Below, in pieces: positions 10,326 through 24,965 of a stretch of DNA of 25,096 bases. Below the pieces are notes generated by a model, which was not told the DNA's origin, searched no databases, and saw nothing but the letters and a program-made list of their open reading frames with translations. Numbering within the stretch: position 1 is the first letter of the stretch; each line of letters begins with the position of its first letter. A program made the translations under genes and the position numbers. The stretch spans positions 1 through 25,096 of IMG/VR virus record IMGVR_UViG_3300046339_000011, one strand, 5' to 3'. Source of the DNA: a virus.

Positions 10326-11024
10326 TCAGAACATAATCGGGGCATCCCAAGTAAGTTGATTCTCTAGATGTGCTTCGATCAATTGGTTTAGTTTTGATTG
10401 ATGTTCTGGAGTAAATTGTATAGTAGAATCAGGCAACCAATTAGGTACTTCTTTGAGGTATCGTTCGGGAGATACTACCCCTGATTTAGTGGCAAACTGA
10501 TAATGAATGTTTTGAAGGCAATTCTGATCTTTTGAACCAAAATTTATAAATTTGTCATGTATTCTTGGCATACGGATTATTGTTTGATAGCTAGTACCAC
10601 CACGATTATATTTTATACCTATAGGAAGTCCCGATGACTTTTTCATTAATGCTATATTGAACCAATTTGTCACTAATTCTAAATTAGATCTTGTATTATT
10701 ACTAGGATCGCCATCTATATGATTGATCACCCAATTTTGATTAGTCTTCAATCCAACTATTAATTCATAAATTTTTACATTTTTTCCATTTTTCTTTGTA
10801 CTAAATCTGCCTTCACAATCCGGACACCAATTATATAGTTTTAATAGATCTACTTTATCAAGATCGATAGTATTAGTATATAATCTACCAGTATTAGTAT
10901 TGAGTACATGTAAAGTTTCATCTACAAACAATTGATTAAAAATTAATTTATAATTACTTTTATTTACATTATGATGAGGTAGATCGAATTCCCATTTATT
11001 AGTAGTGTTGGTATAATGAATCAT
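10326..11024 (-). CDS. HNH homing endonuclease, copy 1 (232 aa)
   Basis: HNH endonuclease with the core VINHIDGDPSNN at residues 99-110 followed by SNLELVT (113-119). A CPDC pair at about 67-70 may bind zinc. After the HNH core comes an AP2-like DNA-binding stretch (GLPIGIKYN...SYQT) and a conserved C-terminal tail ending in a helix (LNQLIEAHLEN). The start at 11024 is chosen over an upstream in-frame ATG at 11075 because it forms an ATGA overlap with the stop of the preceding gene and matches the start of the second copy. Such proteins cut DNA to spread their own gene. It is a close paralog of 11510-12214. Confidence 0.85.
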   Translation of the reverse strand: MIHYTNTTNKWEFDLPHHNVNKSNYKLIFNQLFVDETLHVLNTNTGRLYTNTIDLDKVDLLKLYNWCPDCEGRFSTKKNGKNVKIYELIVGLKTNQNWVINHIDGDPSNNTRSNLELVTNWFNIALMKKSSGLPIGIKYNRGGTSYQTIIRMPRIHDKFINFGSKDQNCLQNIHYQFATKSGVVSPERYLKEVPNWLPDSTIQFTPEHQSKLNQLIEAHLENQLTWDAPIMF

Positions 11025-11365
11025 ACAGTTTGTCTCATTCGCAAATAAAGGATAGTAGGTAAGCATAAATGGCAATGAGGCGGCATACCAGCATTCCAGA
11101 CAATAGGAGATTCTTTATCGTCGTCACATTCTAATCTGTAAGATATTTGAGTAGATTTGGGGAAAGATTTAGTGGTATGGTATAGTTCAAGAACCATATT
11201 AGTGATTACATAATTTACAATTTCTTGGACAGAAGGGACTACGCAAATATAATCTTCGAGATTGATTGATCTTAGGTAATTATTGTCTTGATTGTTTATG
11301 TTTATTGAGTAAATCGTATCTTCGAGATTGATTTGTTTAATGAGTTGATAGATTTGTTGAGTCAT
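11021..11365 (-). CDS. Hypothetical protein (114 aa)
   Basis: Unrecognised 114-residue protein lying between the two HNH genes. It overlaps the previous gene by 29 bp and its stop overlaps the start of HNH copy 1 (ATGA), so it is tightly coupled. The C-terminus (MPPHCHLCLPT) holds a His/Cys cluster that could bind metal. The N-terminus repeats the word INLED (residues 12-16 and 34-38). Confidence 0.6.
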   Translation of the reverse strand: MTQQIYQLIKQINLEDTIYSININNQDNNYLRSINLEDYICVVPSVQEIVNYVITNMVLELYHTTKSFPKSTQISYRLECDDDKESPIVWNAGMPPHCHLCLPTILYLRMRQTV

Positions 11366-11540
11366 ATTTTGGCGAAAGAGATGAATAATAATTGACTAAT
11401 ACTTTAGTAACATTGTCACACATAGATTGTTGTTCTTCTAGCGTCATTCCTTCCATAAGATTATTACACTCTTGAATGTAGGAATTGACATGATTATTAA
11501 ATTTAATAATTAGTGAGTGAGTGGAGTAGGTTGTTCCCAA
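11337..11540 (-). CDS. Small hypothetical protein (67 aa)
   Basis: Unrecognised 67-residue helical protein (NNLMEGMTLEEQQSM). It overlaps the end of HNH copy 2 by 31 bp and the next gene by 29 bp. The palindrome ATTAAATTTAAT (11496-11507) lies inside it and is read in frame as IKFN. The start codon at 11540 has no clear ribosome site; a shorter form is possible. Confidence 0.5.
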   Translation of the reverse strand: MGTTYSTHSLIIKFNNHVNSYIQECNNLMEGMTLEEQQSMCDNVTKVLVNYYSSLSPKYDSTNLSTH

Positions 11541-12214
11541 GTTGCTTGATTAGCTAGATGTGCTTCAATTAATTTATCTAGTTTTGATTGATGTTCTGGA
11601 GTGAATAGGATAGTATGATCTGGTAGCCAGTTTGGGACTGATAATAGATATCTTTCTGGCAATACTAAACCTGATTTAATAGCAAATTGGTAGTGCAAGT
11701 TTTGAAGATAGTTAAGATCTTCAGAACCAAAATTTATTTGTTTCTTTACTCTTGGCATAGCAATTTGTGTTTGATAGCTACTATCACCATGATGATACAG
11801 TATACCAATAGGAAGTCCAGATGACTTCTTCATTATTGCGGTGTTGAACCAATTAGTGACTAATTCTAAATTAGATCTTGTATTATTACTAGGATCGCCA
11901 TTTATATGATTGATCACCCAATTCTTATTAGTCTTTGCACCATATACAGATTCATGAATTTTTACAGTTTGTCCATTTTTATATGTTAGAAATCTACCTT
12001 TATTGTCAGGACACCAATTATATAGTTTAAGAAGATCTACTTTATCAAGATCGATAGAATTAGTATATAATTTACCAGTATTAGTATTGAGCAGATGTAG
12101 TAGATCGTCTACAAATAATTGATTATATGTTAATGGCTTACAAGATCCATTATTTATATTATGATGAGGCTGAACGAACTGATAGAAATTGAGTATTTTG
12201 CAGAAATGTATCAT
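11510..12214 (-). CDS. HNH homing endonuclease, copy 2 (234 aa)
   Basis: Paralog of 10326-11024 over its full length. The HNH core reads VINHINGDPSNN, followed by SNLELVT, an AP2-like stretch (GLPIGILYHHGDSSYQT) and the same C-terminal tail. The start at 12214 is preferred over an in-frame ATG at 12256 because it follows TAGGGGATTAATT, a strong ribosome site, and aligns with the start of copy 1. It follows the methyltransferase gene closely. A decayed third relative is at 24657-24965. Confidence 0.85.
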   Translation of the reverse strand: MIHFCKILNFYQFVQPHHNINNGSCKPLTYNQLFVDDLLHLLNTNTGKLYTNSIDLDKVDLLKLYNWCPDNKGRFLTYKNGQTVKIHESVYGAKTNKNWVINHINGDPSNNTRSNLELVTNWFNTAIMKKSSGLPIGILYHHGDSSYQTQIAMPRVKKQINFGSEDLNYLQNLHYQFAIKSGLVLPERYLLSVPNWLPDHTILFTPEHQSKLDKLIEAHLANQATWEQPTPLTH

Positions 12215-12248
12215 AATTAATCCCCTATAACAAAAATGGTGAGAAATG

Positions 12249-12749
12249 TCAACCAAATACTACCACCATTGAGTCGAAAGTACCTGAGTTTTTAGCTTTT
12301 GGTAGATGTTCTGTGTTGGGGATAGAATTTATACCAGTGCCAGGATTGATATGGGCGGGTTGTAGTACACCATTAACTTTAATCTTACCAATACCTTCAA
12401 ATTTTAGTCTGCCTTCTATGAATAGAATTTGACTAGCATGAGGTTTAATTACATGGTGATAAAGTCTGGTAGACGTGCTGACAGGAAGTAGAAATACAGA
12501 TTTATTACCATTAATTTGCCATTCTGCTAACCCCTTCATAACAAATGCTTCTTTTTCTATTTTGCTGTATGGAGGATTGACAAAATTAACTTTTTTCCAA
12601 GGGACGATTAGTGCATCATTTTCTGGCGTGATTACTTCATTTATGGGGCAAACATCAAACATTTCACCATGTACATCAACTAATTGATCGTAGAAATATT
12701 TTGGTGTCGTCCAATGATTACTTGGGTTGGAAATTCTAGGTTTAGTCAT
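12249..12749 (-). CDS. Phage-type DNA N6-adenine methyltransferase (166 aa)
   Basis: Transfers a methyl group from S-adenosylmethionine to adenine in DNA. The catalytic motif NPPY lies at residues 58-61, after a W-T-T-P-x-x-F N-terminus and FDVCP, and before a FIEGRLKF block near 130-137. This order fits the phage DNA N-6-adenine methyltransferase (Dam, PF05869) family, which is also of this size. It is the first gene of the operon, read from a near-consensus promoter at 12777-12806. Likely use: protecting phage DNA from host restriction or marking its own DNA. The target site cannot be read from the protein; GATC is common in the plus-strand array. Confidence 0.85.
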   Translation of the reverse strand: MTKPRISNPSNHWTTPKYFYDQLVDVHGEMFDVCPINEVITPENDALIVPWKKVNFVNPPYSKIEKEAFVMKGLAEWQINGNKSVFLLPVSTSTRLYHHVIKPHASQILFIEGRLKFEGIGKIKVNGVLQPAHINPGTGINSIPNTEHLPKAKNSGTFDSMVVVFG

Positions 12750-13729: not shown

Positions 13730-14470
13730 TTATATTTTTTTGATATATATATATATATATACTCCAGTAAACCCATCTCTTAGTAATACTTTTATTTCTC
13801 GCACTTGTTGTTCATTTAACTTTGCATGTGGTGCCTTTTCGCCACACAAAGAAACTGACAAGTTTTTTTTATGTTCGTCGGTAAAAATTCGCCCAGCCAT
13901 AACAACTGATAAATGTTTCTTCGCTTCTTCTGATAAAGTTTTTCCCTTTTGAGAAGCAGACATATTTTTCTTAGTTTGCTGCGTGTGTTTATATCCATAC
14001 AAAGGATGTTCTTCCCCAAATTTTCCATACATGGGATTATTACTACCAACTTTGCAATTTGATAGTTTTTGTTTAGTTTTTTCTGATGGAGTGTTACCGA
14101 TATGAGAATCAGACATTTTTTTCCTTGTTGATGTGGAAAAATCTTTTGCAAAATTAGGATGATTTTCACCAGATAACCCGTTACCACCACCAGAAATTGG
14201 CGAAAAATTCATACAATATGGTTTGTGCAAATGTTCGGCGATCAATTCCGTCTCTGCTATCATCAATTCTTCTATGGTGTCATAGTAAGAAAGTATTGTT
14301 CGTCGCAATAGATTCTTATCTTTAATAGACTTCACCCATTTACCAGATCCCAAATAAGGATCATTATCTGGATGTTTGTCTGATGAGTGCATACCGTAAT
14401 ATTTCTTATCACTACCCACTAGGATAGTTTCATACAAATAGTTATATTTTTTAGGGGTTCTGTTGGTCAT
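13730..14470 (-). CDS. GIY-YIG homing endonuclease, C-terminus frameshifted at (AT)n
   Basis: Seg-type homing endonuclease. The N-terminus YNYLYET...KYYGMHSS carries the GIY-YIG core. Several NUMOD3-type repeats follow (GENHPNF, GSNNPMYGKFGEEHPLYG, then MSASQKGKTLSEEAKKHLS). The start at 14470 (MTNRTPKKYN) is preferred to 14500 because the domain begins there. The protein ends abnormally in VYIYIYIKKI because the frame runs through a 19-bp AT repeat (13743-13761). The next frame continues KKYNVHKATINDIK and TWKHV to a stop at 13663, which is the usual end of the DNA-binding helix-turn-helix in this family. So the tail is out of frame by one base, through AT-slippage or loss of an A from the adjacent A7 tract. 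Confidence 0.8.
   Translation of the reverse strand: MTNRTPKKYNYLYETILVGSDKKYYGMHSSDKHPDNDPYLGSGKWVKSIKDKNLLRRTILSYYDTIEELMIAETELIAEHLHKPYCMNFSPISGGGNGLSGENHPNFAKDFSTSTRKKMSDSHIGNTPSEKTKQKLSNCKVGSNNPMYGKFGEEHPLYGYKHTQQTKKNMSASQKGKTLSEEAKKHLSVVMAGRIFTDEHKKNLSVSLCGEKAPHAKLNEQQVREIKVLLRDGFTGVYIYIYIKKI
13743..13761. repeat. (AT)n microsatellite inside the GIY-YIG gene
   Basis: Nineteen bases of alternating A and T directly beside a run of seven A/T homopolymer bases (13735-13741). A change of one AT unit shifts the frame. Similar short AT tracts occur at 21054-21063, 21479-21489 and 22413-22426. Confidence 0.85.
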
Positions 14471-14544
14471 AAAAATTAATGATAAAGACAGCATTATCAT
14501 ACTAACATATATTGGCGCAAAATACCACCACCAAATTCTAAATT

Positions 14545-14668: not shown

Positions 14669-17600
14669 TTAAACAATAATAGAAACATCAGACTCGATCA
14701 TACAATAATGTTCAGATTCAATTTGCCCATAATAGTACAATTTTGTAGTATAGTTGGTATTAGTTAACCCACTACCAGCATCAATAATTTTTGCTCTAAC
14801 AATACTACCGTTCAAACATTCTAATAAGATCTTAGCAGGGTCAGCAACCCCCTCTACCGCTAACATCATGTAGCGGGGATAATGCAATCCAGCATACACA
14901 ATATCAACGCCAGTCAATTCGCCCCCAACAATATTAAATTTGAATTCAGCGGGGATCACGTCTTTATCATTATTACTATTATATACAATAGAATATACAT
15001 CATCTACTCCAATAGTATCATCAACGATCCAAGCACTCAAATGAGTAATAAAATCAGTAGAATTAACAGTAAGTGTTGTACTAGTAGTAGTATAATTTGC
15101 AGATGGTTGGATAACTCCATTTACAAATAGTATTATGTTTCTATTAGTGGGGTTATTGGTAATGGTATAGATTTTATTGGTAAGGCTGACTAAATTTAAT
15201 GCAGTAAAATTATCACTATAGACCCCATATGCCGTACCAGTAATATTTTGTGTAAAGACAACATTATTACCAACAATACTAAATTCATTATTTGGTACAT
15301 TATTTACAAACATAATCAATTTTGAAACATCTACAGGGACAAAAAGGTTAGTATTTGTGGTGAGTGTGGTAGTATTGGAGTTCGTTAATACTTTTTTGTC
15401 CGTATAAGTTAAAAATGAACTCGGTAGGTTGAGTATAGAGACCCGGTCACTCAAATCATTTATTGTTTGATGAATAGTTACGTTATTGTTAGCCACCGAA
15501 TAATCATAAGATGGATGTTGTGTAACTCCATTGATGTACAAAATTGAATTACTGGCAATCCTACTAACCAAATTATTAAATTTAATAATACTATAGTCAG
15601 TTGCCAATACGGTATTAGAATTAATTTTTTCTAATATCAATCTGTTATGATTTTCTGTCAGCCATACTAGATCTCCGTAATCATAATTGATAAAGGACGA
15701 GTAGTTGCTGTGAACATAATCATTATCATTCCAAATGTAGTCGAAATATTGTTTTTTGAATTTAGTATTTTTGTATAGATCTTCTGGTAATGAATCGATA
15801 TTAATAACGAAATCAGTTTCGTTTTTTTCGGCTAATATACTTAAAATATTCTCGATATTGATCTTATAGTCAATAACATTGTTGATCTGTGTCTCTCTAT
15901 GTAGGTACATCTTCACTATATTATCTATGCTGTATATGCTGTATATCTTATTACCGAGCATATGTACATTATCCACCACAAAATTTTTCCATTCTATTAG
16001 TGAATGTGGGGATTTTATTGAATAAGAATATTGTTGATGAGTAAGGTTGTCTGCGATCACATTATTAGAAGTAATAATACTATCCAAATTATCAGTAAAA
16101 TCTTGAATAGTTTTGTTGCTGGTTGGAGTACAAATTAGTTCTGCTGTACGGACATTATGAATTTTACCAATTTTTCGTCCAGATTCATCCCACAAAAAAT
16201 AATCATTATTCACTACAAATTTTCCAAATAATGATTTCACTTGCAAAGTCGAAGCAATTTTATTATATAAATTAATTTTACCCTTTGCCACATAATTATT
16301 TCTAGTTAATCCATAATAAACAATACTGGTATTGATATCAGATTTGCTTAATATTGGAATGATAGTTGCACCAATACCAATTGATATAGAAACAATAGGA
16401 ATACTTTCAAAATAATTATCACTTTCAATAATGTCAATTCTACTAATAACACTATTAGCAACCACTAAACTAGCAGAAAACTGATTATTTAATACTACAG
16501 AATTTTCAGTATAGCCAATACCATTAGTGATAATTATAAAATCGGTGATGGTATTATTAAATTTAATATCTAAAATCACATCACTATCCACTGAATAATT
16601 TATAGTAGGGTCGCCACCAAACCCATCTCCATTGGTAATATTTTTAATATTTTTAATAGTTCCAATAGTATCACTACGAAATATAATAACTGCACCAACT
16701 CCATATTGTGATAATATAGTATGTGGTGGGATGGATTCTAAATTAATGCCGTTATCAATTATGTTTACTCCAATAATCCCACCAGTATTAGATACTGCTG
16801 AAACGATTATTTTTATATTAACATCTTCAAATTTTATAATATCTCCTACTGCATAATTAATACCAGGAATCTCTATTAGGTAATCATCTATTGCCCCATA
16901 GCTAATATTATCCACCTTTGCCAAATATGGATAAATTTTATTATTTGGTGAAGGGAATTTAACTTCATCATTGTATATTCTGATTGAACCACTAGGAATA
17001 TTGCAATTATTTTGCAATTTCAGATGATTATAGGAATCAAATTTGTATTTGTATTGATTACCGACAAAATAAGGAAATGCGTCGGTTGCAAAATAGCAAT
17101 ATCTACCTTCTGGAAATTCTGGGGTATACGCAAACACCCCATTATACTCATCCAAAACACCACCAATATACTCATAATCTTCAATAAATGTTCCTAATGG
17201 TGCGGTTGGTCTATTAGTAGAAGTAGTAATCTTGAGTGTCCAACTAGAGTATAGTTTATCAACCCCCCCTCTTGGCGCATCTACATATGCTCCATATATA
17301 GGCACACCATCAAATGCCCAACCAATTATGGGAGAATGTACTGTTCTTACTGGTTCAATGTGTACTAATTGTAAATATTGTGGCGAAAAATTAGTATCAG
17401 GTAGATTAGATTCGCCGACCCCACTATCTCCTTGATTATATACATATCCACCAGTACTATCTATAGGGGCATTATTTGCAATATTGTACGTCCAGCTATT
17501 TATAGTCGCAGCAAATACCGCAGAGTTTGGAAAATAATTGACTACCAATGTTGGATTATTGAAGTAGCTAGAACCACCATTTATTACTTCTACAGACACT

Positions 17601-19975
17601 ACTCTACCGAATTCAACATTGACAGAAAATTTAGCACCACTACCAGTAGTATTGATTACCTTTAATTCTGGACTAGTGAAGTAGTTTATACCACTATTTT
17701 CTACCGATACGGACACAATTACTCCCAATTCTACCACTATACTAAATACCACTCCACTACCAGATTTTAAATATACTTCTGGAGTGGCAGAATATACATC
17801 GGTGTTTGGGATGGCTAATGATTTGTAGTTGATAGGATCAAAGTCAACATCTGATAGTTCTGTAGGTAGAAAATAATATTTACCTACAAAACCAGATATA
17901 TACACGTTTGTAGTGGGAATAGTTAATGGAGTTAGATATTTCCCACCATTAACTATTTTTATTTCTGGGATCTCTGTATACCATTTACCAGGATTTTTTA
18001 TTATTATTCCATTAATTACTCCACTCACATCATAATCAACTTCCAACTCCATATCTATCCCAGTAACATCATTAATATTTCTGGTGACAATTACTTCTGG
18101 CTTTTTATTATATCCACTCAATAAATCTTGGCTGATACCATCCAATGTTATTCTCTTCAAACTTCCATATATTTTTATAATATTGCTGTAATTCTGAGTA
18201 TTAACATACAACTCTGGAATAGATTCATTAATTCTATTCGGTAAAAAATAATCATCCCCATTACTAATAATATCGATATTAGTCAAGTTACCATAGTCAA
18301 TAGTTGCCCCTTTATAACTACAAATTTCTACCCCATTGGTGGTTAAGCCAATACCTTTATTGGTTGGACTTGGTTCGACTATATTATTTTTGATAAATCT
18401 TTTCAGGATAGTTTGTTCCGAAAATGATCTAGTATTCGTAGTACTTACTGGCTTACCATCAGCAGTAATATACATATAATCATCAGTATCATATATACCA
18501 TAAATATTACTCCACACATTGTATTCGGTAGCATCTTTAGTGATTGGAGATATACTATCAAAGATACTATCATTTTTATACCCACTGGCACCATCTAAAA
18601 TCACGGCACCCGACCCACTACTAATTACTGAAAACTGACATTTTTTGTTGCCGGAACTCAATTCAACGGTAGCTGTACGATATTGATTATCGCTATAAAT
18701 TCTATACAATTTTACCACATCTTCGCCAACCATACTATAATTTTGCGTACCAGGAATCAATACATTTCTCGTAATACCAATCAGTTTATTGATAGTCTTA
18801 GATGTATAATTTATATACTCACCATTTAGACTGACTGTACCAGCAGTAGGAAATCCAATAGTAGAATCAACAATAATATCAGTTCCTACTATTGGAATTA
18901 ATTTGGTAGTTGGTGGCACATATAGTGAGTTATTTTTATCAGTGATAATCTTGACTATTACTCTTTCATTATCCCGATAAACTACACTTAAATCCGAGGT
19001 ATAAATACTTATTTTATTCTGTGTTAATACAATATTCTTCTCTGATCTGATCTGCTCAAAATTGGTAGTGGTATCATTTAATTCTAATAATATTTCAGAA
19101 TATACACTGTTGTCAGAATTTGTTTTAATCGTATACTCGTACGGTAATATTACAGAAGGTTCTTCGGTAGTAATATCTATATTGTTTATTACTGCTGTAC
19201 AATTGGTACTAGTTATAGACTCACCAATTCTAAAACTTTTATCAGTTTCGTTCAAATATAATTCATTTATATCGGGGTTCCAATATGTAATTTTACCCTT
19301 CGCGCCACTAATACTGCCAGTAACAATAGAATTGATATCAAAATCACGTTCAAGAATTACTACATTATTATTGTTGTTGTATAGAGTACCAGGATTTACT
19401 ATGGACACCGCAGTAATCACTCCAGCGACTATATTATCTATTTGCAAAACCGCATCAGTACCAGCACCAATCACATCAATTGTTGGTTTGAAATTGTTGT
19501 TATAGCCAGAACCGCCATTAATTATAGTAGCAGTAGCTACGCTGCCATTCAACACTTCTAACAATACTACCGCACCAGAACCTCTCAGCAGTACTTTAAT
19601 TTTGGTGGTAGTGTCATCGAACAACAATTTGAATAACGTTTTGATCGATTCCTCAGTACCTTTGCTGGTGTTGAAATCTTTGATGTGGGGTATTAATGTC
19701 GAGTAATTGATTTTAGGATTCAATTTTTGTGGTAGATTTCCTAGATATTTGTATCTAAACTGGTCTAAGATCAGGTTTTGTTTATCTGTAAGATCTTGTA
19801 TTTTATAGTTTTGAATATTGTAGTACTCAATCAGATTGTTCATCAGATCCAAATTGCCCAACGGCTGTTCTTGAGACTTGTAGTATTCCTCAATGAATTG
19901 TACAAATTTAGGGTAACTCTCTACAATGTGATCTGGTAATAGTGATGAGACGGTGAGACTACTAGTTACTTTCAT
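14669..19975 (-). CDS. Giant baseplate-type structural protein with YHYH domain (1768 aa)
   Basis: Largest gene here. Residues about 1-130 (LLPDHIVESYPKFVQFIEEYY... then KDFNTSKGTEESIKTLFKLLF) match the N-terminal module seen in large baseplate or tail structural proteins of T4-like cyanophages. A YHYH domain lies at about 865-985, with HSPIIGWAFDGVPIYG at 880-895 and an EG-YCYFATDAFPYF part about 75 residues later. The rest is beta-rich, with many repeats of the form V-x-I-x-G-x-GY-x(3)-P (for example IINGGSGYNNN, VEVINGGSSYFNNP, ITNGIGYTENS). No signal peptide or membrane segment. A late promoter lies 32 bp upstream. Probable role: baseplate or tail-fibre attachment. The palindrome ATTAAATTTAAT occurs twice inside (15575, 16556), both times in frame as IKFN. 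Confidence 0.8.
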   Translation of the reverse strand: MKVTSSLTVSSLLPDHIVESYPKFVQFIEEYYKSQEQPLGNLDLMNNLIEYYNIQNYKIQDLTDKQNLILDQFRYKYLGNLPQKLNPKINYSTLIPHIKDFNTSKGTEESIKTLFKLLFDDTTTKIKVLLRGSGAVVLLEVLNGSVATATIINGGSGYNNNFKPTIDVIGAGTDAVLQIDNIVAGVITAVSIVNPGTLYNNNNNVVILERDFDINSIVTGSISGAKGKITYWNPDINELYLNETDKSFRIGESITSTNCTAVINNIDITTEEPSVILPYEYTIKTNSDNSVYSEILLELNDTTTNFEQIRSEKNIVLTQNKISIYTSDLSVVYRDNERVIVKIITDKNNSLYVPPTTKLIPIVGTDIIVDSTIGFPTAGTVSLNGEYINYTSKTINKLIGITRNVLIPGTQNYSMVGEDVVKLYRIYSDNQYRTATVELSSGNKKCQFSVISSGSGAVILDGASGYKNDSIFDSISPITKDATEYNVWSNIYGIYDTDDYMYITADGKPVSTTNTRSFSEQTILKRFIKNNIVEPSPTNKGIGLTTNGVEICSYKGATIDYGNLTNIDIISNGDDYFLPNRINESIPELYVNTQNYSNIIKIYGSLKRITLDGISQDLLSGYNKKPEVIVTRNINDVTGIDMELEVDYDVSGVINGIIIKNPGKWYTEIPEIKIVNGGKYLTPLTIPTTNVYISGFVGKYYFLPTELSDVDFDPINYKSLAIPNTDVYSATPEVYLKSGSGVVFSIVVELGVIVSVSVENSGINYFTSPELKVINTTGSGAKFSVNVEFGRVVSVEVINGGSSYFNNPTLVVNYFPNSAVFAATINSWTYNIANNAPIDSTGGYVYNQGDSGVGESNLPDTNFSPQYLQLVHIEPVRTVHSPIIGWAFDGVPIYGAYVDAPRGGVDKLYSSWTLKITTSTNRPTAPLGTFIEDYEYIGGVLDEYNGVFAYTPEFPEGRYCYFATDAFPYFVGNQYKYKFDSYNHLKLQNNCNIPSGSIRIYNDEVKFPSPNNKIYPYLAKVDNISYGAIDDYLIEIPGINYAVGDIIKFEDVNIKIIVSAVSNTGGIIGVNIIDNGINLESIPPHTILSQYGVGAVIIFRSDTIGTIKNIKNITNGDGFGGDPTINYSVDSDVILDIKFNNTITDFIIITNGIGYTENSVVLNNQFSASLVVANSVISRIDIIESDNYFESIPIVSISIGIGATIIPILSKSDINTSIVYYGLTRNNYVAKGKINLYNKIASTLQVKSLFGKFVVNNDYFLWDESGRKIGKIHNVRTAELICTPTSNKTIQDFTDNLDSIITSNNVIADNLTHQQYSYSIKSPHSLIEWKNFVVDNVHMLGNKIYSIYSIDNIVKMYLHRETQINNVIDYKINIENILSILAEKNETDFVINIDSLPEDLYKNTKFKKQYFDYIWNDNDYVHSNYSSFINYDYGDLVWLTENHNRLILEKINSNTVLATDYSIIKFNNLVSRIASNSILYINGVTQHPSYDYSVANNNVTIHQTINDLSDRVSILNLPSSFLTYTDKKVLTNSNTTTLTTNTNLFVPVDVSKLIMFVNNVPNNEFSIVGNNVVFTQNITGTAYGVYSDNFTALNLVSLTNKIYTITNNPTNRNIILFVNGVIQPSANYTTTSTTLTVNSTDFITHLSAWIVDDTIGVDDVYSIVYNSNNDKDVIPAEFKFNIVGGELTGVDIVYAGLHYPRYMMLAVEGVADPAKILLECLNGSIVRAKIIDAGSGLTNTNYTTKLYYYGQIESEHYCMIESDVSIIV
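15575..15586. repeat. Palindrome ATTAAATTTAAT, one of 12 copies
   Basis: Perfect 12-bp palindrome. Copies start at 2176, 3617, 5737, 7434, 9004, 11496, 14545, 15575, 16556, 20033, 23469 and 23952. Seven are intergenic beside terminators or gene ends, one overlaps the leader of gp13, and four are inside genes. Most are extended to ATTATTAAATTTAATAAT. See the findings for interpretation. Confidence 0.9.
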
Positions 19976-20145: not shown

Positions 20146-20266
20146 CCTCAGTGTATGTATGATGTGTTTAAGATATCTAACAATAGACAAAATTGATGGA
20201 ATGATAATTTCAACATATCATTTAAAATAAACCAACTATGTCTTTTTTTGGGGTCACTAATCCACT

Positions 20267-20572
20267 TCACTTCACTTGTTTTTTAGTCAATTCTAATTCT
20301 GTTTGATATTTTAATAAAAACTCACCAGATATAAATTCTGGCAAGTTTAATTCTGTATATGCCTTATCAGAGATATTATTATAATAATATCTCCATTTAA
20401 AATACAAAGAATTCATTCCATTGTCCTCATTCTTCTTAATAGAATACCCAGTAGTAATTCCTAGTATTCCCTCTGCACATAGGCAAGTTTGATCATTTTT
20501 ATCAACCAAACTACAAAACCCTTGTTTATATTTTGCGAAGTTGTCTTTCAGTTCTTGTAATTTGTTAATCAT
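20267..20572 (-). CDS. Tandem paralog family, member 4, C-terminally short (101 aa)
   Basis: Last copy of a four-gene tandem family. It keeps the N-terminal part (KLQELKDNFAKYKQGFCSLV, then CLCAEGILGIT) and the middle TELNLPEFI and LELTKKQ, but stops there. The C-terminal block ending LTFSQFILLLDIL of the other members is missing, so it is probably truncated. A TTGAGTAAA ribosome site precedes it. The minus-strand word CTAGAGTGTCC (a variant of CTAGAATGCCC) lies about 40 bp upstream. Confidence 0.7.
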   Translation of the reverse strand: MINKLQELKDNFAKYKQGFCSLVDKNDQTCLCAEGILGITTGYSIKKNEDNGMNSLYFKWRYYYNNISDKAYTELNLPEFISGEFLLKYQTELELTKKQVK

Positions 20573-21945: not shown

Positions 21946-22152
21946 CTAGCGGTGTTTGGGAAGATATTCTCGCAGTCTGTCCATCTGTTTTAGTTCTTCT
22001 TTGTTTAATGTTGGTTGTAGCACATTAAAAAACTCTACCATTGCTGTTGCTTGTTGTGCTGCACTCTTAGCTGGTAGATCATCTTCGTAATATGCGATTT
22101 CACTTGCTAGGAGTAGTTTAAAGATATTTTCTGCCAGTTGTTTGTCAATCAT
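21946..22152 (-). CDS. Small helical hypothetical protein (68 aa)
   Basis: Unrecognised 68-residue, all-helical, acidic protein (MIDKQLAENIFKLLLASEIAYYEDD..., ending DRLREYLPKHR). A near-consensus sigma70 promoter lies 26 bp upstream. It is the first gene read from that promoter and could be co-transcribed with the four paralogs. A small helical protein under a host-type promoter would suit a regulator or inhibitor, which is inference. Confidence 0.65.
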   Translation of the reverse strand: MIDKQLAENIFKLLLASEIAYYEDDLPAKSAAQQATAMVEFFNVLQPTLNKEELKQMDRLREYLPKHR

Positions 22153-22177
22153 ATATTAATAATGTTGGCTTATTACT

Positions 22178-22206
22178 AGTATATAACAGATTCTCGTTTT
22201 TGTCAA
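22178..22206 (-). promoter_or_regulatory. Near-consensus sigma70 promoter
   Basis: Minus strand TTGACA (22206-22201), 17-bp spacer, TATACT (22183-22178). The TGA inside TTGACA is also the stop codon of the gene at 22203-22541. It drives 22152 and probably the paralog cluster. Confidence 0.8.
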
Positions 22207-22541
22207 GATAAATCACGAAAAAACTCACCAATTTCTATTTTTTTCCTTTTTATTGAACTAAATAATTTAGGGACTACCCAACCTTGTCTATATCTGGAAT
22301 GTATTGTATTGTAGCTTAGATTAAATGCAATGCACCATTCGCGCAAAGTTTGTTTTTTTTTAATTGGTACGAATTCCCTGTTGCAATATTCACATACTTT
22401 TGATTTCTTTTGATATATATATATATTATGAAATTTTTTATAATCTGATAAATTTTGATATCCATGAGATTTAACATGAAATCTTAAATTATATTTGTCA
22501 TAGAAGTTATTACAATTAACACATATTACACTATTTAACAT
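22203..22541 (-). CDS. Zinc-finger, helix-turn-helix protein, probable homing endonuclease relic (112 aa)
   Basis: Two parts are visible. At the N-terminus is a C2H2-like finger CVNCNNF...FHVKSH (residues 7-25) and a later CEYC (about 50-53). The C-terminal half (TLREWCIAFNLSYNTIHSRYRQGW, split here by its turn) resembles the helix-turn-helix found at the ends of HNH-type homing endonucleases. No nuclease core is present, so this is either a DNA-binding protein or an endonuclease that lost its catalytic part. It sits directly after the split-intein half of TerL, where fractured phage genes often carry a homing gene. Its stop falls inside the next promoter, which hints at truncation. An (AT)n tract lies within it (22413-22426). 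Confidence 0.6.
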   Translation of the reverse strand: MLNSVICVNCNNFYDKYNLRFHVKSHGYQNLSDYKKFHNIYIYQKKSKVCEYCNREFVPIKKKQTLREWCIAFNLSYNTIHSRYRQGWVVPKLFSSIKRKKIEIGEFFRDLS

Positions 22542-22572
22542 AACAGTTAATTTATAAGATAATATAATTATT

Positions 22573-22612
22573 ATAACACAAATCCCCAGAGTTATCCAGG
22601 GATTTGTGTTAT
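22573..22612 (-). terminator. 14-bp stem-loop after the split TerL gene
   Basis: Arms ATAACACAAATCCC (22573-22586) and GGGATTTGTGTTAT (22599-22612), perfect over 14 bp, 12-nt loop. It lies 33 bp after the TerL stop and 31 bp before the zinc-finger gene. The T-run is poor, so it may terminate, stabilise the message, or be a mobile hairpin. Confidence 0.55.
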
Positions 22613-22644
22613 GTGTTATTCAGTTTTACATGATGAGGCTTATA

Positions 22645-23066
22645 CTATATGGAGTTGAAATATTCTGCAATAGTTATAATTTTTACTTCATCGGTAATTC
22701 GGTTTTTGATGGTGATTGCGGTGTCACCTGTAACACATTTCCCGCTTTGACGAGGTTGTCCCCAATATTAGCTAACCAGTTTATTGATTATGCGGCAATC
22801 GGGGACAAAAAAGGATACTTAACGACAACGAAGCGGTTGCGGTCAAACGTCTTCAGCAATTTTTCCTGATATTTATAAAGTTTTATATTTGTCAACCCTT
22901 TATCCAATGTAACGATTTTGATGTAATTATTTGCAAAATAATTTATATCTTTTTTGCACTTCATAAATTCGTTTACATTATCCTCATCAAATTCTATGTC
23001 TACACCAATTCTTTTTAGGAGCGGATTCGATTGAAAAGAGTTTTCCAGTTCTTTTTTTCTTGCCAT
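22645..23066 (-). CDS. terL: Large terminase N-terminal part with split-intein N-half, frame interrupted
   Basis: TerL is the ATPase that pumps DNA into the head. Residues 1-85 (MARKKELENS... to RFVVVKYP, 23066-22812) match the T4 gp17 adenine-binding region: an FMKCKKDINYFANNYIKIV block and LYKYQEKLL. The frame then runs into a TAA at 22790-22788. It resumes at an identical CCT codon (22755-22753) as PRQSGK, the Walker A motif expected to follow KYP. Right after the Lys comes CVTGDTAITI..., an intein start, which stops at TAG (22647-22645) after 30 residues. The remaining intein and TerL parts are not in the window. The start at 23066 follows a late promoter; an in-frame ATG at 23114 lies before that promoter. 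It could also be a dead gene. Confidence 0.8.
22648..22737 (-). CDS. Split intein N-terminal half (IntN, 30 residues)
   Basis: Block A of inteins: catalytic Cys1 followed by V-T-G-D-T, then a beta stretch (ITI) and KIITIAEYF before a stop. It is inserted exactly after the Walker A lysine of TerL (GK^C), a preferred intein site. Such a short IntN is known from the AceL-TerL type of atypically split inteins (25 residues), not from common split inteins (about 100). It would join in trans with an IntC fused to the rest of TerL, restoring the ATPase. The matching IntC is not in this window. Confidence 0.8.
22756..22811 (-). other. Interrupting hairpin between matched Pro codons (bypass-like element)
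   Basis: Fifty-six bases lie between CCT (22814-22812) and CCT (22755-22753). With one of the codons the insertion is 59 nt, not a multiple of three. It starts TTT, then TTGTCCCC (22808-22801), and ends with the exact complement GGGGACAA (22763-22756), directly against the second CCT. The 37-nt inner part holds the in-frame stop TAA and the palindrome TTAGCTAA. Folding would place the two Pro codons side by side, with GGGG just before the landing codon acting like a Shine-Dalgarno. This matches the logic of the T4 gene 60 bypass. Alternatives: an RNA or DNA element that is removed, or a disabling insertion. Confidence 0.65.
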
Positions 23067-23101
23067 TTTTATTTTTGCTTGGATAAGTGTTTGAGTAATA
23101 A

Positions 23102-23109
23102 TATTTATA
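23102..23109 (-). promoter_or_regulatory. T4-type late promoter for terL
   Basis: TATAAATA on the minus strand, 36 bp before the ATG at 23066, in the gap between gp13 and terL. Confidence 0.65.
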
Positions 23110-23150
23110 CGCAATATAAATAAAAATAAAATATGGCAACATATAAAAAT

Positions 23151-23948
23151 TTAGCCTATCATGAATATAGGATATTCCTCCCATTCTGATGACATTTTCG
23201 CCAAAAATGCTTCTTTTTCTCGAACACCGTCGTTGTATAGTGAGTCAGCGTTAAACATCACCCCACTAGGAAGTTGTATATTAGAAAATTTTCTTAGATT
23301 TTGCCCAAATTGTATTTTGACAAGTATTGCGAAATATTCTTTGACGAATCTATCATTATATATCTTCGCAAATTGAACAGGATCGAGTGCGCGTTGACAC
23401 TGAATAATTATAAAACGATCTAACATTGATTCAATATCAAAATCTAGATATAATCTACCATTATTTCTATTAAATTTAATAGCAGTTTCCGCATTCAATA
23501 TATTTATAATGTTTTCAATGCTTTGACGTAGTAGATAAATATCAGTCAGATCTAACATCTGACCACCATAAAAGTTAAACTGTTCCATTATGAAGAATTC
23601 GGGGGATCGACCGAACATGTCATGTAGGTAATTATTATTTGTTCTGGCAACACTAGTAATGCCAATTATATAGTCAGGAACTATTAAAAAGTTTTGATTG
23701 TCAAAGAATGACAATCCACCAGGATTCAATATTTGTGTGTGTGTCTTTTTGTTATCAATATCTTGCTGTGTAATTTTATATTTAAGATACACCTCTTCTG
23801 TGCCGTCATACACACGATCCTGGTATAGTTGGAGTACGTCATCAAGAAGTTGTTCTAACTGGGAATTCTCTACATTTATTTCTATTAGTGGCGCACCTAA
23901 TTTCTTTTTTGCGTAATCAAACAATGCTGTGCGAGAATTTATTGACAT
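23151..23948 (-). CDS. T4 gp13-like neck protein (265 aa)
   Basis: Neck (head completion) protein that seals the filled head and joins it to the tail. The N-terminus (TALFDYAKKKLGAPLIEINV, then QLEQLLDDVLQLYQDRVYDGTEEVYL, split here at the join) is characteristic of gp13 in T4-like cyanophages, and the length (265) fits. No signal or membrane segment. In T4 the order is 13-14-15-16-17. Here terL follows directly and 14, 15 and 16 are absent from the window. ATTAAATTTAAT lies both in the leader (23952-23963), close to the ATG, and inside the gene (23469-23480, read IKFN). No separate promoter was found, so it may be read together with the two upstream genes. Confidence 0.8.
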   Translation of the reverse strand: MSINSRTALFDYAKKKLGAPLIEINVENSQLEQLLDDVLQLYQDRVYDGTEEVYLKYKITQQDIDNKKTHTQILNPGGLSFFDNQNFLIVPDYIIGITSVARTNNNYLHDMFGRSPEFFIMEQFNFYGGQMLDLTDIYLLRQSIENIINILNAETAIKFNRNNGRLYLDFDIESMLDRFIIIQCQRALDPVQFAKIYNDRFVKEYFAILVKIQFGQNLRKFSNIQLPSGVMFNADSLYNDGVREKEAFLAKMSSEWEEYPIFMIG

Positions 23949-24656: not shown

Positions 24657-24965
24657 TATGGCAAAACTTCGATAAATATAACATATGCCAATGGCAGTAG
24701 CTATAAAACACAAGTTATTATGCCAAGAGTAAATGGTAAGCAAATAAATTTTACTTCTAAAGATCTTAATTCCCTCCAGAATATTCATTTTCAGTTTGGT
24801 ACAGAATCAGGATTAGTGTCTCCAGAACGATACCTCAAAGAAACTCCTAACTGGTTGCCCGATTCTACTATCCAATTCTCACTAGAACAGCAGAATAAAC
24901 TAGACCAATTAATTGAAGCACATTTAGAAAATCAGGCATCTTGGGATAAGCCTATTAGATTCTAA
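24657..24965 (+). pseudogene. HNH endonuclease relic, C-terminal part only
   Basis: The frame GSSYKTQVIMPRVNG... to the end (LDQLIEAHLENQASWDKPIRF, split at the last helix) aligns with the C-terminal third of both HNH copies: NFxSKDLNSLQNIHFQF, SPERYLKExPNWLPDSTIQF. Homology begins at about 24666, upstream of the first ATG (24720), and the frame is closed by a TAG at 24654. The HNH core is missing. It lies on the opposite strand to its neighbours and is followed by the same terminator cassette, so it is the remains of a moved or inverted homing gene. An 81-residue protein from 24720 could still be made. Confidence 0.7.

Follow-up and report, generated by a model that had tools for sequence, protein, structure and literature searches.

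In the window, i.e., the whole 25,096-nt stretch of DNA analyzed here, which is a complete virus record (IMG/VR IMGVR_UViG_3300046339_000011), a phage gene for the large terminase subunit (TerL) is interrupted by a 59-nt hairpin element. The element lies between a proline codon and the codons for RQSGK, which we take to be the Walker A residues of TerL. The 59 nt are a clean, precise insertion, absent from the relatives compared. We regard programmed ribosome bypassing, with moderate confidence, as the best explanation of the interruption. The entire window also lies, at positions 52934-78029, within G001, a record of 109,315 nt from the same phage.

The interruption comprises the following features, with codons and stops read directly from the sequence:
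22812-23066, minus strand: N-terminal part of TerL, 85 codons from ATG (23066) to the take-off CCT, ending ...NRFVVVKYP
22812-22814, minus strand: take-off codon CCT (Pro)
22756-22811, minus strand: inserted hairpin element, a 56-nt gap (59 nt with one CCT), with an 11-bp outer stem and an inner stem
22788-22790, minus strand: TAA terminating the N-terminal frame within the gap
22768-22770, minus strand: TAA closing the landing frame within the gap
22753-22755, minus strand: landing codon CCT (Pro)
22738-22752, minus strand: RQSGK, i.e., TerL up to the intein insertion point, placed by comparison with relatives

The N-terminal part matched the terminase large subunit family phrog_5989 in a profile search (E 3.5e-16) and is 49-59% identical to 78 other TerL loci. 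An earlier note, made from the letters of this DNA, had described a TerL frame that reads ...VVVKYP, meets a stop and resumes 59 nt further on at an identical CCT in another frame, and this is what we see on the minus strand. The 59 nt are counted from first base to first base, with 56 nt between the two codons. In the take-off frame CCT is followed by TTT TTG rather than a stop, and seven sense codons (F L S P I A A) are read before TAA 22790-22788. From CCT 22755-22753 the landing frame reads PRQSGK as the note had it; it does not, however, run on into TerL but enters a split-intein N half. Between TAA 22770-22768 and this intein half the landing frame holds no ATG, GTG or TTG, and PRQSGK with the N half (IntN) therefore cannot be made alone in the usual way. 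Nor can one frameshift join the two frames, because the landing frame has TAA 22770-22768 and the N-terminal frame stops before it. This phage uses TAA as a normal stop, at the end of 49 of the 82 open reading frames (ORFs) of at least 120 amino acids (aa). Neither the window nor the six pieces of the 109-kb record yielded a tRNA gene and hence a suppressor tRNA, a candidate that was rejected. Outside the insert, coding is open on both sides without further damage. A patch of odd codon use upstream of the insert was also considered and dropped, as it falls inside the range of other genes.

To place the insertion in its family, we scanned viral contigs with the 84 residues preceding the junction and inspected the best 80 of 557 confirmed relatives. 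Two of these (L002 in G001, and L001 in the 42,760-nt record G002) are the same phage, with 100% identity and the insert present. In all 78 foreign loci P is followed directly by RQ[T/S]GK, the insert being absent, as the earlier note had expected of related phages. The junction reads ..P RQ[T/S]GK ST.. in 75 of the 78, and in the other three (L023, L026, L028) GK leads into a continuous intein. Skipping the 59 nt restores the family sequence with zero residues gained or lost. The matched CCT pair is weak evidence alone, because any insertion with a 3-nt end repeat yields it, and it would arise by chance in a few percent of cases (a rough estimate, not computed).

The window, G001, G002 and a further record of this phage (G009, 15,049 nt, not covering the insert site) agree with zero mismatches. 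Metagenome numbers differ between G001 and G002, and the insert-bearing records, i.e., the window and two other IMG/VR records, are one strain. A search with the adaptor protein for close relatives recovered only the same strain.

The insert is bounded by an inverted repeat of 8 perfect base pairs ending against the landing codon, as noted earlier, or of 11 bp when one G-U pair is included. Its arms are 22808-22798 and 22766-22756, and the 3' arm adjoins the landing codon. The predicted fold of the 56-nt gap is a hairpin in two parts, with 11 closing pairs and an energy of -22.6 kcal/mol, a value equalled in 72 of 31,218 56-nt windows of the 109-kb record (both strands, step 7). A closing stem with 11 of 11 pairs and equal span occurred at 14 of 218,490 positions, the insert counted among them. 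The hairpin alone (window 22757-22808) had z = -5.47 against shuffled sequences, none of 200 being as stable. The gap hairpin is far beyond chance. The predicted stem begins after three unpaired nucleotides 3' of the take-off codon, which itself lies outside the stem. A G-rich word before the landing codon (GGGG), earlier listed as a signal of its own and considered here as a Shine-Dalgarno-like word, sits inside the 3' arm of the hairpin and is not separate evidence; the phage makes little use of such motifs.

Two further structures flank the gap:
22818-22847, minus strand: candidate 5' stem-loop, -7.8 kcal/mol, ending 3 nt before the take-off codon
22741-22754, minus strand: weak candidate 3' stem-loop overlapping the landing codon, -4.6 kcal/mol

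The stability of the 5' stem-loop was matched in 1,818 of 25,117 coding 39-nt windows and in none of 48 distinct relative sequences. Against shuffles its z was -1.17 over 39 nt (24/200 as stable) and -2.15 over 31 nt (8/200), and we consider this candidate suggestive only. The 3' candidate gave z -1.52, with 16 of 200 shuffles as stable.

The earlier note had missed that TerL is, as judged from profile matches to each piece, split into three: the window piece and two on G001, P0001 and P0002, which were found by family searches and have open reading frames. The features concerned are:
22645-22737, minus strand: split-intein N half CVTGDTAITIKNRITDEVKIITIAEYFNSI plus stop TAG (22647-22645), recognized by similarity to phage intein N halves
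G001 100857-103313, minus strand, and 104529-105767, plus strand: P0001 and P0002 (locus L091), the remaining TerL in two genes

The N half of 30 aa starts right after PRQSGK. Compared with four short phage intein N halves (those of terminases L136 and L176, and those of L177 and L178), it showed 9-15 identities over 29-30 residues, and in each of the four comparisons none of 2000 shuffles scored as well. These homologous N halves stop at a similar length of 29-32 aa. The 30-aa N half had no match among PDB sequences. P0001 opens with an intein C half that matches the engineered CatC (PDB 6dsl, E 5.8e-8) and ends ...NIVSHN, after which TerL resumes as STTMICYALW. We thus find a short N half, a conserved site and a separate C half ending HN before the extein, and the window N half and the C half in P0001 are predicted to be matching halves of an atypical split intein. 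About 25 kb separate the N piece from the middle piece.

P0001 further contains a continuous intein with a LAGLIDADG match as well as Terminase_6N, and P0002 carries the Terminase_6C nuclease domain after what is likely a second C half. The end of P0001 would hold a second N half, placed by the junction FEQEFE|...|CSFIGSS (relatives FEQEFE|CDFLGSS); it has no significant similarity to the first, with 4 of 29 identities and 614 of 2000 shuffles as good. Three pieces and three inteins thus probably belong to one TerL protein. In L177 and L178, from other viruses, the N halves sit at GK| of the P-loop of an apparent clamp loader and a Clp-like ATPase, as read from sequence, and P-loops would seem to be a shared target site for split inteins.

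If the gene works in spite of its disrupted frame, a step of translation or RNA processing must handle the gap, and bypassing is the most economical route to a working protein. In the sequence of events that we propose, a 59-nt hairpin element became inserted between the Pro codon and the Walker A RQSGK in the first piece of the split terminase gene, and is probably tolerated via ribosome bypass. The ribosome would stall at the hairpin, where peptidyl-tRNA-Pro would release CCU. It would then slide or hop over the gap, re-pair at the CCU abutting the stem and go on to read RQSGK-IntN. The intein half would finally trans-splice with its counterpart on P0001, the middle piece of TerL. The origin may be akin to that of T4 gene 60 and mobA, with homing elements splitting the gene and a small insert arising near their target site. 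More tentatively, and as a possibility that we hold at somewhat less than even confidence, the packaging ATPase would be assembled from three genes, by a hop over a folded 59-nt hairpin without a take-off stop and by split inteins that weld the pieces. The hop would then be driven by the hairpin, unlike the sliding in gene 60, and linked to Walker A as a hot spot of homing.

Several observations weigh against bypassing, which we deduce from sequence only. The take-off codon has no directly following stop. At 59 nt, by the counting used for gene 60, the gap slightly exceeds the 56 nt up to which processivity of mRNA sliding is constant in that gene, and it is strongly folded, whereas the T4 gap is reported to be largely unfolded (PMC11194080; here and below, articles are cited from excerpts). 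Neither the 5' nor the 3' stem-loop, although both can form, is more than mildly unusual. The element is unique, found in no other place by the searches made. Since the records represent a single strain and agree at every position, they offer no variation across which selection could be tested. Other gene damage occurs in the phage (at a 5-nt repeat, about 20,270). Finally, a match to the portal protein, present in 3 of 3 relatives searched, is absent from G001, which is hence incomplete, and a second TerL N-terminal part could therefore sit outside it. The earlier proposal of bypassing thus gains from the uninterrupted relatives and from its economy, and loses by the absence of two gene 60 hallmarks: matched codons, a stop in the gap and a hairpin are present, but neither a stop directly after take-off nor a take-off codon within the stem.

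The alternative that survives best, although we consider it unlikely, is that the hairpin inactivated the gene and left a dead N-terminal piece, the phage having an intact copy in its unsequenced part or belonging to a defective or decaying lineage. It is favored by the incompleteness of the 109-kb record and by one paralogous window gene that is frameshifted at a 5-nt tandem repeat; a target duplication would likewise leave the 3-nt CCT repeat. A gp23 match was not found in G001 either, in a search without a positive control in relatives. Yet TerL is essential. The N piece comes after a gene for a head-tail adaptor (phrog_211). In the relative G012, too, the adaptor gene is upstream of terL, at a distance of about 4 kb, and judging by this the N piece is in its ancestral neighborhood. 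The flanks of the insert, the 30-aa intein half included, are free of other damage, and the same sequence recurs in records with differing metagenome numbers. A family search found no second TerL N-terminal part in the 109-kb record, which is incomplete; a second intact terL had been named in the earlier note as counting against bypassing.

In another alternative, which we consider improbable, RNA processing would take out the 59 nt, either as a small intron or by excision of the hairpin and ligation. Introns can interrupt phage terminases, as in ICP1 terL (PMC10448857). The phage also has a match to PF09414 RNA_ligase (E 7.4e-13), which leaves the excision route formally open, although 9 of 14 control genomes match PF09414 as well and a different ligase may be encoded here. 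However, 59 nt is far below the size of self-splicing group I or II introns, and Rfam intron models had no match in 22100-23300; a group I/II intron was thus rejected. Group I introns are expected to end in G, and none of the four equivalent placements of the insert does so. Archaeal introns carry a bulge-helix-bulge, whereas the closing stem here is continuous and lacks it. A terminator identity of the insert was considered and rejected as well.

An assembly or sequencing artefact is very improbable: the source is a metagenome assembly, but the insert is identical, with zero differences, in the window and two other records, and the differing metagenome numbers disfavor an assembly error. Slightly less probable again is a bypass from the preceding codon, TAT (22817) to TAT (22767). 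It would span 50 nt as in T4, and the pair is the only other identical codon pair that we noticed to join the frames without loss of TerL residues, but it would add W-G-Q before Pro, three residues that none of the 78 relatives has. We give least credence to a -1 frameshift at the in-frame U UUU UUG just after CCU into the PRQSGK frame plus one UAA read-through: the heptamer is in phase and adjoins a strong stem, and the frame is open except for TAA 22770-22768, but two recoding events would be required, about 20 foreign residues would come directly before Walker A where 78 of 78 relatives have none, and no tRNA gene was found in the 109-kb record.

Bypassing was then compared with known systems. 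In T4 gene 60, ribosomes hop 50 nt from GGA to GGA, with a stop next to take-off, a take-off stem-loop, a 5' stem-loop, a 3' stem-loop and a nascent peptide; mobA, an HNH gene, splits the topoisomerase gene of T4, and the gene 60 insert may stem from a degenerate intron that protected against a homing nuclease (excerpts of PMC11194080, PMC5009743, PMC3014915). The present case resembles it in that a T4-like phage has an essential gene in pieces, one of which carries a short non-coding insert, with identical take-off and landing codons (here CCT/CCT), a similar gap length, candidate stem-loops around the gap and an HNH-like gene nearby (22203-22541). It differs in the host gene (TerL instead of topoisomerase), in gap length (59 vs 50 nt), in having seven sense codons and then TAA in place of a stop directly after take-off, and in a fully folded gap with the take-off codon outside the stem. 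Gene 60 moreover has a nascent-peptide signal, for which no counterpart was identified in the putative TerL bypass. By analogy, the TerL insert may work like a gene 60-type element, but it is not classed as one.

The byp elements of Magnusiomyces capitatus mitochondria are also short frame-breaking inserts corrected in translation (PMC5009743, excerpt). They occupy 81 positions in one genome with an unused codon in the A site, in contrast to the single phage copy in TerL; the many dispersed copies typical of byps are not found here, the insert sequence being present once in the 109-kb record. Streptomyces phage Hau3 may express its terminase by bypassing, a case reportedly tied to a UUA codon and not to bypass of a deleterious insert (PMC5009743). 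Given this suggestion, the novelty for a packaging ATPase put forward earlier is weakened, and it is not safe to claim a first bypass in a terminase. ICP1 terL, where an intron lies next to a homing endonuclease, likewise has a terminase broken by mobile elements, but its transcript is spliced according to RNA-seq and RT-PCR, which sets it apart from the TerL insert (PMC10448857). The atypical split inteins AceL-TerL, GOS-TerL and Cat have N halves of 25, 37 and 30 aa, compared with 30 aa here; they are named after terminase genes, and the P0001 C half matches CatC. The present intein differs from them by its site at GK| of Walker A, the distance of about 25 kb between pieces, and the 59-nt insert in the N-half gene.

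The earlier note had suggested looking for the same hairpin in other genes, and the searches made found none. The insert is single-copy in the 109-kb record, its exact core occurred in viral contigs only in the same phage and had 0 matches in bacterial and archaeal genomes, and BLAST against annotated phages gave no match. A gapped hairpin pattern hit ten stretches of viral contigs: two are the same phage, and eight, whose matching stretches have 52-69% G+C, were judged chance by eye without comparison to relatives. A covariance model was run on 43 selected sources. Its highest foreign score, 22.6 bits (E 0.0063) compared with 98.2 for the insert, came from a locus (L188) that had been picked by the same gapped pattern. 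Tblastn of 716 ORFs from four relatives gave matches for 77 and no frame-broken pair; homologous stretches cover 25,274 of 109,315 nt, inserts in genes without homologues escape, and the method is blind to the terL case itself, PRQSGK being too short. Among the matches listed in open-licence literature, we did not find the element described.

Neighboring features are:
22573-22612, no strand assigned: perfect 14-bp hairpin after the intein stop, read from the sequence
22203-22541, minus strand: small HNH/zinc-finger-like protein (phrog_3377 HNH endonuclease, E 2.1e-6)

The first resembles other intergenic hairpins of the phage and probably serves as a transcript-end hairpin. Intergenic copies of one A/T-flanked hairpin (TGACCTTCTAA...TTAGAAGGTCA and variants) lie at G001 13734, 35040, 61946, 72979, 77963 and 103329, resembling a shared terminator or mobile repeat. 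The second, with no Pfam match above cut-off, is likely a relative of homing endonucleases. HNH_3-type endonuclease genes are repeated in the window (10326-11075, 11510-12256, 24720-24965) and in G001 (about 3.9, 35, 45, 88 and 103 kb), with about 77-83% DNA identity and some copies as fragments. A NUMOD3-containing protein (window 13730-14500, minus strand, E 2.2e-20) presumably resembles a GIY-YIG-type homing endonuclease. In the MINKLEQLKENFAKY family of four paralogues, one (window 20148-20572, minus strand) is frameshifted at the 5-nt tandem repeat GTGAAGTGAA at about 20,270, and the remainder of its protein continues in another frame. The window also encodes a 1768-aa baseplate-wedge-like virion protein with a YHYH domain (14669-19975, minus strand), and a gene that we read as tail sheath-like follows P0002. 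Shine-Dalgarno-like motifs precede 12 of 82 G001 ORF starts compared with 6 of 82 at control places, and the regions upstream of starts are rich in A, which suggests that the host makes little use of Shine-Dalgarno pairing.

Efficient phage bypassing rests largely on one studied case, T4 gene 60 (PMC5009743, excerpt). If our reading is correct, the TerL insert would be a second phage bypass. Located in an essential gene, with its gap folded and take-off lacking a stop, it would reveal which signals are general. It would also lend weight to the view that genes acquire such inserts at sites attacked by homing elements. A single protein needing both a translational hop and trans-splicing would represent an extreme of gene fragmentation.
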